Origin: Prevotella sp.
GTDB taxonomy: Bacteria > Bacteroidota > Bacteroidia > Bacteroidales > Bacteroidaceae
DNA length: 64,000 nucleotides
Reading direction: 5' to 3'
Assembly: GCA_016281815.1 (NCBI GenBank)
Contig: JAEEJK010000104.1
Coordinates: forward strand, 62,001 to 126,000
Positions 56,757 through 64,000 of this stretch are shown one piece after another. Made by a program: the position numbers and the translations under genes. Under the pieces are notes generated by a model. The model did no database searches and was not told where the DNA came from. It was given only the letters and a program-made list of their open reading frames with translations. How positions within the stretch are numbered: position 1 is the stretch's first letter; each line of letters opens with the position of its first letter.

Positions 56757-56774
56757 CACCCGATTTGCAGAGCG

Positions 56775-56855
56775 CAAGTTAAGGGGTGCCCGATATTTCG
56801 GGCTGAGATCAGACCCTCTGACCTGATCCGGGTAATGCCGGCGTAGGAATTCATT
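56775..56855 (+). promoter_or_regulatory. TPP riboswitch (THI element)
   Basis: aaggggtgcccg...cgggctgagatcagacc...gacctgatccgggtaatgccggcgtaggaa. Confidence 0.96.
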
Positions 56856-56895
56856 CTTCCTTCCCCCTTATTGTATATATCATAATAAGGTATTC

Positions 56896-59279: not shown

Positions 59280-59891
59280 ATGCTTGATTTTCTGCAAGCC
59301 CACTGGCTAGACATGCTGACCACGGTGCTCGGACTGGCTTACATCCTGCTCGAGTACCATGCCAGCATCTGGCTGTGGGCAGTGGGATTCGCGATGCAGA
59401 GTTTAGGCATTGTCCTCTATTACCAAAAGGGGCTGTATGCCGACTGCGGCATGGAATTCTACTATCTTGCCATGACGGTGTATGGTTATTTGCACTGGAT
59501 CAAATCTTCCGGCCATGACGGTAAATCATCCGGCAGTGACGGAAAGTCCAAGAAAGAAAGACCCGTCACGCATTTTCCCGCAAGATTGGCATTGATTTGG
59601 CTTTTTGTCACCTTGACAGTATGGGGAGTGCTTTATTGGTTCCTCTCCACTTACACCGACTCCAGTGTGCCCCTGGCCGATTCCTTCACCACCTCCCTGT
59701 CTTTTGTCGGAATATGGGCTCTGGCACGGAAGTATCTTGAGCAATGGCTGATATGGATAGTGGTCGATGTGGTCACCTGCATCCTCTATTACTACAAGGA
59801 TATTCCCTTCAAGGGAAGCCTGTATGCCCTGTATGTCGTGATAGCCATATTCGGATACAGGAAGTGGCGAAAGATGATGCAGGAAGCGTGA
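59280..59891 (+). CDS. PnuC/PnuT-family transporter, predicted thiamine
   Basis: PnuC-type TM pattern; YQKGLYADCGMEFYYLAMTVYGYLHW; riboswitch operon context. Confidence 0.88.
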   Translation: MLDFLQAHWLDMLTTVLGLAYILLEYHASIWLWAVGFAMQSLGIVLYYQKGLYADCGMEFYYLAMTVYGYLHWIKSSGHDGKSSGSDGKSKKERPVTHFPARLALIWLFVTLTVWGVLYWFLSTYTDSSVPLADSFTTSLSFVGIWALARKYLEQWLIWIVVDVVTCILYYYKDIPFKGSLYALYVVIAIFGYRKWRKMMQEA

Positions 59892-59969
59892 ATGACCATC
59901 AGCAAGAAGCCGTTGTTTGCGCGCACATTGTTAATTTTTGTCTTTTTGGGGAACAAAGTGATAGATTGA

Positions 59970-60001
59970 CTTGCATAAGCCGCTCCAAAAGCGTATCTTT
60001 G
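59970..60001 (+). promoter_or_regulatory. Bacteroidetes-type promoter (CTTG-N20-TATCTTTG)
   Basis: TATCTTTG at 59994-60001 with -33-like CTTG at 59970. Confidence 0.6.
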
Positions 60002-60007
60002 CAGTGT

Positions 60008-60195
60008 CATAAAGCTGAAAGGCGTGATGCCTTATTATTTTGTTAGCAAAGATAAAACTAAGACAATAATAATTTTCGCTAAAAACATCTCACATCTGTG
60101 AGGTGGTCCACTCGTGAGAGTCGATATCTTTGAGTTAATTTATTTAGTAAGTTATATACATGCACCCAGTCGTGAGACTAGGTGCATGTTTTTCT
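60008..60195 (+). ncRNA. Candidate structured small RNA, about 190 nt
   Basis: Own promoter, no ORF, stems AAGGC/GCCTT, TTATTATT..TTAG/CTAA..AATAATAA, two GUGA-loop hairpins, terminal hairpin CATGCACC..GGTGCATG followed by TTTTT. Confidence 0.6.
60159..60195 (+). terminator. Rho-independent terminator of the candidate small RNA
   Basis: CATGCACC-C-AGTC-GTGA-GACT-A-GGTGCATG-TTTTTCT. Confidence 0.85.
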
Positions 60196-60272: not shown

Positions 60273-61685
60273 CTAGTCTTTGAGTCTGAATGATCTCTCA
60301 ATAGTTTGAATAAGCGCGGTAAATTCCTTCTCGGCCTTCATTCGCTGCTCCACTTTTTCGCAACTGTGCAGCACAGTGGAGTGGTCGCGTCCTGCGATGA
60401 GTTGTCCGATTCTGGATGCCGGCATCTTCGTGTGTTTTTGGGCTAGATACATTGAGACTTGTCTTGCGACGACTAAGTTACGTTTCCTACTTTTGCCTCC
60501 CACCTCCTCGGGAGAGACATTGAATTGGTTGCAAACCGTGTTGACAATCTCATCGACTGTGAGCGGTTTGTTGTCGACCTTGACTGAGCGCTTGAGCACG
60601 GATGTGGCGAGCGCCATGTCAATAGGTCTGCCATATACCACCGAGTAAGCCATGAGTGAGTTAACCACACCTTCCAGGTCTCTCACGCTTCCGTTGGCAT
60701 TCTCGGCGATATAGAGGATCACATCCTCTGGGATATCAAGACCATCTTTCCTGATCTTTGCATGGAGGATATCGACACAGAGTTGTGTGTCGGGTTTCTC
60801 CAGTTCTGCGATAAGTCCGCAACTGAACCTTGTGAGCAGTCTGTCGTTCATCCCCTGGAGGTCCACCGGCGGGCGGTCGCATGCCAGAATGATACGCTTC
60901 CCGTTGCGGAACAGGTGGTCGAAGATATGGAAGAAGGTGTTCTGTGTCTTAGCAGAGGTCATCCATTCCTGAATATCATCAACAATCAGCACATCGATGG
61001 TCTGATAGAAATTGATGAAGTCATTGATGGTACTGTGTATGATAGCATTGGTATACTGCACCTGAAACAGTCTGGCGCTGACATAGAGCACCCGTCTTTG
61101 CTGATAATTCTTTTTGATGCGCAGTCCTATGGCATTAATAAGGTGGGTCTTTCCACAGCCCGAAGGTCCGTAGATGAACATCGGGTTGAACATGGTGGTA
61201 GCCGGCTGCTCAGCGATGGTCAGTCCCACCGCCCTTGGCAGTTTGTTGCTGGCCCCCTCGATGAAGTTGTCAAAGGTCTGCTGTGGGTTGAGTTGTGAGT
61301 CGATTTCCTGTGGTTTTGCCGCATCGAGAACCGAATATGACTGATTGGCCTTGGTGCTGGGCACAGGTTTCTCCATCACCTCCTGAGTGTTGTCAGACTG
61401 CACCACCATTGCCTTATTATTGGTCTTGTCGGTGATGATGCGGTATTCGAGTTTCACCCCACTTCCGAACACCCTCTTGAGAACCTTGCTGATCAAGTCC
61501 ACAAAGTTCCCCTCCAGGTACTCATACACGAATGGGCTGGGTACCTGCACCAAGACAGTCATTCGAGCCGGGAAATACGACTCGAAGACAATTGGCTCGA
61601 ACCATGTTTTGAATTGCTGCTCCGTGACATTTGCCTTGATAATTTGGAGGCACTTTTCCCAGAGGAGCGTTGGACTTTGTTTCAT
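60273..61685 (-). CDS. dnaA: Chromosomal replication initiator DnaA
   Basis: FNPMFIYGPSGCGKTHLINAIG, VLIVDDIQEW, GRDHSTVLHSCEKV. Confidence 0.97.
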   Translation of the reverse strand: MKQSPTLLWEKCLQIIKANVTEQQFKTWFEPIVFESYFPARMTVLVQVPSPFVYEYLEGNFVDLISKVLKRVFGSGVKLEYRIITDKTNNKAMVVQSDNTQEVMEKPVPSTKANQSYSVLDAAKPQEIDSQLNPQQTFDNFIEGASNKLPRAVGLTIAEQPATTMFNPMFIYGPSGCGKTHLINAIGLRIKKNYQQRRVLYVSARLFQVQYTNAIIHSTINDFINFYQTIDVLIVDDIQEWMTSAKTQNTFFHIFDHLFRNGKRIILACDRPPVDLQGMNDRLLTRFSCGLIAELEKPDTQLCVDILHAKIRKDGLDIPEDVILYIAENANGSVRDLEGVVNSLMAYSVVYGRPIDMALATSVLKRSVKVDNKPLTVDEIVNTVCNQFNVSPEEVGGKSRKRNLVVARQVSMYLAQKHTKMPASRIGQLIAGRDHSTVLHSCEKVEQRMKAEKEFTALIQTIERSFRLKD

Positions 61686-63041: not shown

Positions 63042-64000
63042 TTAGTTCTTTTTGTTTTTTAGTGTTTTAAACTCCCTGATGGCTTTTGCCAGATCAGTTT
63101 TCTCCCCATCCTTGAATGCGATGATGAAGGCTTGGGGGAATTTGGTGAGAAGTTCTTTTCTGATATTGGAAATTTCGTCAAAGTCAGGCGTTGCTCCCAC
63201 GGTGTACTTGAACATACCGTTTTCCTCATAAGAATCGATATTCTCCACCCCCTGGAAGACGCTGTTTGTCGTAGGGATCAACTGTGAGGTAGCAGCAATC
63301 TGCACTTTGAACACAGGGCCATGCAGAGGGATTTCCTCCGTGGGCTTTACGGGATCCTTTTTGGGGTCTGCTACAGGCACTTTTTTCTTTGGTTCGGCGA
63401 CAGGCTGTGCTGGCACTTCTTTCTTTGGCTCAGCGACAGGCTGTGCTGGAACTTCTTTCTTTGGTTCGGCGACAGGCTGCGCTGGTATTTCTTTCTTTGG
63501 TTCGGCGACAGGCTGTGCTGGAATTTCTTTCTTCGGCTCGGCGACAGGCTGTGCTGGAATTTCTTTCTTTGGCTCGGCGACAGGCTGTGCTGGAACTTCT
63601 TTCTTTGGTTCGGCGACAGGCTGCACGGGTTCCTTTTTAGGCTCTGCAGCGGGTCTTACAGGTTCCTTTGGGGGTTCGGAAACAATCTTATCAGTAGGTG
63701 TTGGTTTTGTGTCTTTCTTAATATCTTTTGTTGGCTCAGTCTTGGGATCAGGTGTTGTCGTCTCTTTTTTTTCAGAAACGGGCTGCACTATTTCTACCTT
63801 GCTTACAAAAGCAGGAGAAGTAGCCGGAGTATTTTGAACAGGGGGACTGGCCGTAGGCTGAGGCACCTCCACAGATGTATTGACCGGTTCAGAGGGAATT
63901 ATTCTCACCGCTCTCTGTTCTGTAAATTCAGCAGGCGCCGATGAGACTTCATCCGTGATGATCTGCTGTTCGGTGCGTTCCTCCGCATTCCTGTTGTCCA
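63042..64000 (-). CDS. C-terminal part of a SPOR-domain protein, probably N-acetylmuramoyl-L-alanine amidase; runs off the window
   Basis: Frame stays open past the listed start to 64000 (DNRNAEERTEQQIITDEVSSAPAEFTEQRAV|RIIPSEP); SPOR-like FKVQIAATSQLIPTTNSVFQGVENIDSYEENGMFKYTVGATPDFDE. Confidence 0.7.
   Translation of the reverse strand, partial: DNRNAEERTEQQIITDEVSSAPAEFTEQRAVRIIPSEPVNTSVEVPQPTASPPVQNTPATSPAFVSKVEIVQPVSEKKETTTPDPKTEPTKDIKKDTKPTPTDKIVSEPPKEPVRPAAEPKKEPVQPVAEPKKEVPAQPVAEPKKEIPAQPVAEPKKEIPAQPVAEPKKEIPAQPVAEPKKEVPAQPVAEPKKEVPAQPVAEPKKKVPVADPKKDPVKPTEEIPLHGPVFKVQIAATSQLIPTTNSVFQGVENIDSYEENGMFKYTVGATPDFDEISNIRKELLTKFPQAFIIAFKDGEKTDLAKAIREFKTLKNKKN
63390..63630 (-). repeat. 36-bp coding tandem repeat encoding EPKKE(V/I)PAQPVA
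   Basis: At least six consecutive 12-aa units. Confidence 0.92.

Follow-up and report, generated by a model that had tools for sequence, protein, structure and literature searches.

A probable stand-alone small RNA gene between a pnuT-like gene and dnaA in one lineage of a Prevotella-like genus

What is encoded between the pnuT-like transporter gene and the convergent dnaA gene of this Prevotella genome (4.1 Mb, 92% complete)? A preliminary description of the window, that is, the whole analysed stretch of 64,000 nucleotides, had proposed a pseudoknotted small RNA with its own promoter and terminator. We favour, with a probability of about 0.68, a stand-alone, promoter-driven gene for a small regulatory RNA (sRNA) of ~188 nt, conserved within a single lineage of a very large genus judged Prevotella-like from gene content and promoter type; the RNA would be regulated and act in trans. 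Comparison of homologous loci shows selection on the plus strand for the promoter, three stem-loops, a linker and the terminator. The locus is composed as follows.

56772-56867: TPP riboswitch, preceding the TonB-receptor and pnuT-like genes.
59280-59891, plus strand: pnuT/PnuC-like transporter gene, the upstream context; adjoins the RNA at nearly all homologous loci.
59914-59934, plus strand: conserved upstream box TGTTTGCGCGCACATTGTTAA, a candidate regulator-binding site.
59971-60001, plus strand: Bacteroidota-type promoter TTG-N20-TATCTTTG (TTG at 59971-59973, 20 nt, TATCTTTG at 59994-60001).
60006-60193, plus strand: small RNA gene, ~188 nt; homologues found by blastn and covariance models; no Rfam match.
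60019-60033, plus strand: 5' hairpin AAGGC-GUGAU-GCCUU, kept in the closest relatives only (L005, L006 and L037 compared with the rest).
60032-60072, plus strand: AU-rich hairpin with an 11-nt loop (arms 60032-60046/60058-60072), lineage-specific.
60064-60084, plus strand: conserved stretch CAAUAAUAAUUUUCGCUAAAA, a putative pairing site.
60086-60105, plus strand: hairpin H1, CAUCUCAC-AUCU-GUGAGGUG, pairing probability ~1.0, the most stable hairpin.
60106-60125, plus strand: hairpin H2, GUC-C-ACUC-GUGA-GAGU-C-GAU, with a GNGA tetraloop.
60126-60157, plus strand: ultraconserved linker AUCUUUGAGUUAAUUUAUUUAGUAAGUUAUAU, the most conserved part of the alignment.
60158-60193, plus strand: intrinsic terminator with a 13-bp stem, a GUGA loop and a U-run (stem 60158-60189, then T189-193).
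60273-61685, minus strand: dnaA, convergent with the RNA and adjoining it in 26 genomes, including the source genome.

Because the TPP riboswitch lies ahead of the TonB-receptor gene, the genes neighbouring the sRNA are probably involved in vitamin uptake. Beyond dnaA, the minus strand at 63042-63908 encodes a protein with many PVAEPKKE(V/I)PAQ repeats, a low-complexity proline-lysine linker.

The promoter that had been proposed for this gap was confirmed: a TTG precedes TANNTTTG at the equivalent site in 25 of 26 homologues, and transcription would start at about 60006-60009. Further upstream, the box TGTTTGCGCGCACATTGTTA begins at 59914, and in some relatives its core reads as the palindrome TGTGTGCGCACACA. 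A strict search allowing substitutions only detected the box in 17 of the 30 homologues scanned, and inspection by eye showed it, with an indel, in others, L011 and L014 among them. The start of the box lies 56-57 bp from the -33 TTG in all box-bearing homologues except L040, where the distance is 67 bp, about one helical turn longer, and this spacing is held even where the 5' part of the RNA differs in length. The full motif has one exact match genome-wide, its sole other match carries 3 mismatches, and there were 2 control matches. The box looks like a dedicated regulator site, and we treat it as a candidate.

Folding of the plus strand is stronger than expected by chance (z = -5.1, with none of 200 shuffles as good), and the minus strand gives a comparable value (z = -5.4). 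Folding energy alone therefore does not tell the strands apart, and the assignment comes from the promoter and from conserved G-U pairs: G-U combinations occupy 71 cells across homologues versus 14 for A-C, an excess that points to the plus strand as the RNA. Covariation was assessed on 28 distinct homologues, with doubtful loci excluded, and 27 modelled pairs in the three conserved stem-loops. Standard pairs fill 94.5% of cells (shuffles, 75%; slid controls, 28-44%), both sides have changed in 20 of the 27 pairs, and none of the five measures was reached in any of 500 shuffles, values to be read with the alignment in mind, as it was fitted to a model of this same structure and favours it; an alignment made with MAFFT only (A1) already shows 10 pairs with both sides changed. 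The compensatory changes, which the preliminary description had proposed to look for by a covariance search of homologous loci, fall in H1 (5 of 7 modelled pairs), in H2 (4 of 7) and in the terminator (11 of 13), whose stem covaries in agreement with the strong terminator claimed earlier. In the loops of H2 and of the terminator the second base varies, GNGA being retained in most homologues (GUGA, GAGA, GCGA or GGGA in H2), and within the window no other strong terminator found by scanning has a C-GNGA-G loop.

Other parts of the previously proposed structure fared less evenly. The best-supported hairpin, H1, was missing from it. Of its two GUGA-capped hairpins, ACUC-GUGA-GAGU (60110-60121) stands, whereas AGUC-GUGA-GACU (60168-60179) forms the tip of the terminator stem and no hairpin of its own. 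The hairpin AAGGC-GUGAU-GCCUU is present but conserved in the closest relatives only, and the AU-rich hairpin with its loop, although present with a pairing probability of ~0.7, is shared only with the closest relatives, L006 and L037, and most homologues lack a counterpart. Within the conserved stretch that follows, AUNNUUUUCGC is found in most homologues and is missing from L046-L050 and L055. The nearly invariant linker carries CUUUGAGUUAAUUUAUUUUAGUAAGUUAUA. A weak AU hairpin may form in the window's linker; a linker hairpin UAAUUUA/UAAGUUA is possible, in a segment too invariant to show covariation. The statement that the interval holds no open reading frame was borne out by inspection of the 5' segments, in which no frame is kept across homologues. 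A short conserved reading frame in the 5' part was rejected, since a 13-codon frame open in L010 is not maintained, its start being absent or the frame interrupted in L005, L006, L007 and L008.

At least 30 genomes of the genus carry a homologue. Blastn against 399 congeners recovered homologues in ~14; the best is full-length with 89% identity, and about a dozen shorter ones retain 60057-60195. The aligned homologues have in common the promoter, H1, H2, the nearly invariant linker and the terminator, and differ in their first ~60 transcribed bases. Covariance models (R1, then the refined R2) extended the family, R2 scoring above 65 bits in 26 of 278 near-complete congeners and giving only weak matches of 41-43 bits in other genera among 151 genomes of the taxonomic family; in the source genome the model detects one copy. 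Because the searches over many genomes were strictly filtered, their counts are minimum values. Blastn matches in other families (L002, L003) were dismissed as chance similarity to promoter-like AT-rich DNA. Two weak model matches, L053 and L054, were set aside as a different element, AGGUUAAUAGAUUGUUUUAGGUUAGUAGUAAUAUUUAUAGUUUUAGGUUUUUAGUUAUUGG, which is near-identical in the two genomes and rich in UUAG repeats; L053 has no Rfam match. The genome G351 carries a second, shorter copy of the RNA (L016), which differs in its 5' part and promoter and lies apart from both pnuT and dnaA.

The RNA family is absent from Rfam: no family of release 15 reached its gathering threshold for the interval, and relaxed thresholds gave nothing credible, a minus-strand SurA match scoring 21 bits against a cut-off of 100. 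The RNA may nevertheless be among those that RNA sequencing has already revealed in Segatella, above all SrcF. As described in PMC11814227, which cites El Mouali et al. 2024, SrcF of Segatella copri is needed for gut colonisation and is linked to nutrient-uptake genes. That our RNA is SrcF or its orthologue, and so has already been described experimentally, would fit with SrcF being an sRNA of a Prevotella-type bacterium, a likeness drawn from that description and not from sequence; we consider it unlikely, as most congeners searched lack the family.

Could the conserved structure instead serve its neighbours in cis, as a structured 3' untranslated region of pnuT or as a two-way terminator between pnuT and dnaA? 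The position between two convergent genes, usually after pnuT, would suit such an element. The order TonB receptor, pnuT, RNA, dnaA is found in 26 genomes including the source genome, a count in which the TonB gene lies outside the fetched stretch in some. However, the RNA adjoins pnuT without dnaA in six or more further genomes, and in genome G419 (L014, L034) it has a TonB-receptor gene nearby but adjoins neither pnuT nor dnaA, its promoter and box being intact; it is therefore not an untranslated region of pnuT or dnaA. The promoter kept in 25 of 26 homologues, together with the upstream box at near-fixed spacing, also argues against a cis element, and two hairpins plus a linker exceed what a terminator needs. 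We regard this alternative as very unlikely. By contrast, the earlier proposal of an independent small RNA is strongly supported by the conserved promoter, synteny, covariation and terminator.

Weaker matches to R2 led to other small-RNA-like genes with the same tail, most of them with promoters of their own. This tail consists of a linker such as UUUUUUUAGUGGUUAAUUUAGUUUUAGUAAGUA followed by a terminator with a C-GNGA-G loop, and the linker and GNGA-capped terminator recur in at least two other classes of small RNA at different loci. The second class, in which linker UUUUUUUAGUGGUUAAUUUAGUUUUAGUAAGUA is followed by a terminator with a GNGA cap (L051, L052, L096, L100, L101, L103, L105, L109, L110, L112 and L117), sits in many genomes 3' of an outer-membrane-protein gene ending in NKRHQLLFTLGYRF or similar, and neither of its two loci that were scanned, L100 and L117, matched Rfam. 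The third class combines a variant linker, AAUGGUUAAGGUUUAUGGUUGAUUAAUUUAGUUUUUUAAGU, with a terminator whose loop is of the GUUGUGAAAC type (L121, L122, L123, L127, L129 and L130, around position 1500), and adjoins a thioredoxin-reductase-like gene at the two loci checked (L121, L123). A tail-only model, R3, detected the tail in the majority of the congeners tested, with no more than marginal matches in other families, and none of the 13 loci scanned matched Rfam. The recurrence of linker and GNGA terminator at other loci suggests a shared 3' module, in which the RNA described here has the specific sequence GUUAAUUUA-UUUUAGUAAG and GNGA loops. The common tail could reflect either a shared binding site or common descent. 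Only tentatively, and with the odds against it, do we propose that the linker and C-GNGA-G terminator are a general 3' module of several unrelated sRNAs in the genus and a docking site for an RNA-binding protein that replaces Hfq or ProQ.

Under the favoured reading of a stand-alone regulatory RNA, a transcription factor bound at the candidate upstream box would control synthesis of an sRNA that acts in trans. Its working surface would be the nearly invariant linker, flanked by H2 and the terminator with their GNGA caps; this linker might pair with target mRNAs or bind an RNA-binding protein that also recognizes the sRNAs sharing the 3' module. The variable 5' part might serve species-specific targets or be dispensable. 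Alternatively, the linker may be a conserved structural or termination element instead of a pairing seed or protein site. As to the protein, RRM_1 is the type to which RbpB of Bacteroides belongs (PMC11697453). A search for RRM_1 proteins found none in this 92%-complete genome and one in a control Bacteroides genome, and an RRM_1 partner in the source genome was discarded as a candidate; for this reason, any protein partner is probably of another kind or encoded in the missing 8%.

The preliminary description had also called for a comparison with 6S RNA. A 6S-like RNA would bind RNA polymerase as a mimic of an open promoter, CAAAGAUA and UAUCUUUG imitating the -7 box. The length of the RNA is near that of 6S (~185 nt), both have a stand-alone gene, and the role appears vacant, no 6S (RF00013) having been found in the source genome and 39 related genomes. 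6S RNA, however, has a central bubble enclosed by a long closing stem and a long terminal stem, while the conserved architecture here comprises three small separate hairpins and a linker, not two long arms round a bubble; in addition, the interval does not match the RF00013 model, the promoter-like complementarity is not conserved, and the RNA is restricted to part of one genus. Taken together, these differences make a 6S-like function highly improbable.

Last, the same two segments had been read as an 8-bp pseudoknot, and the perfect complementarity of the loop CAAAGAUA at 60047-60054 with UAUCUUUG at 60125-60132 does exist and is intact or nearly so in the closest relatives, L006 and L037, but we reject the pseudoknot as having next to no chance of being correct: it is not conserved, the complementarity being confined to these relatives because no homologue beyond them retains this 5' segment; over 25 homologues, the strongest pairing of the 5' segment with the linker is at shuffle level (z from -1.6 to +1.1); 8 bp or more arise in 2% of shuffles for this loop and in 12% when any pair of segments separated by 50 nt or more is allowed; the pairing would break the outer pair G106-U125 of the conserved H2 stem; and its probability in the window's own ensemble is only ~0.1. 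The accompanying caution that the downstream UAUCUUUG could be a promoter motif arising by coincidence did not hold, as this segment belongs to the ultraconserved linker of the RNA, AUCUUUGAGUUAAUUU.

Bacteroidota reportedly do without the classical RNA chaperones and, to our knowledge, few of their sRNAs have been characterised. A covariance model, a mostly fixed locus, a candidate regulator site and a shared 3' module give a handle on the regulator, the targets and a possible RNA-binding partner of this one. Among known systems, the Hfq-dependent sRNAs of enterobacteria carry a U-rich stretch and a terminator as a common 3' module, so that there, too, different sRNAs have in common a mostly unpaired sequence and a terminator. 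The module described here differs in its specific GUUAAUUUA-UUUUAGUAAG sequence and GNGA loops, and Bacteroides-type bacteria are reported to lack Hfq, as well as ProQ and CsrA (PMC12119571). Closer in phylogeny are FopS and GibS of Bacteroides thetaiotaomicron, likewise intergenic Bacteroidota sRNAs, with paralogous loci that have a conserved sequence in common (PMC11697453). FopS is ~65-70 nt long, with a conserved seed in its single-stranded 5' part, canonical sigma-ABfr promoters and intrinsic terminators, and its structure is reported as deposited in Rfam (PMC11697453). In Rfam 15, which may or may not contain that model, no family reached its threshold for the interval. By description, and not by direct sequence comparison, the RNA studied here differs from FopS: it is longer, at ~188 nt, has two further hairpins, carries its conserved linker beside the terminator, and is present as a single copy in the genome.
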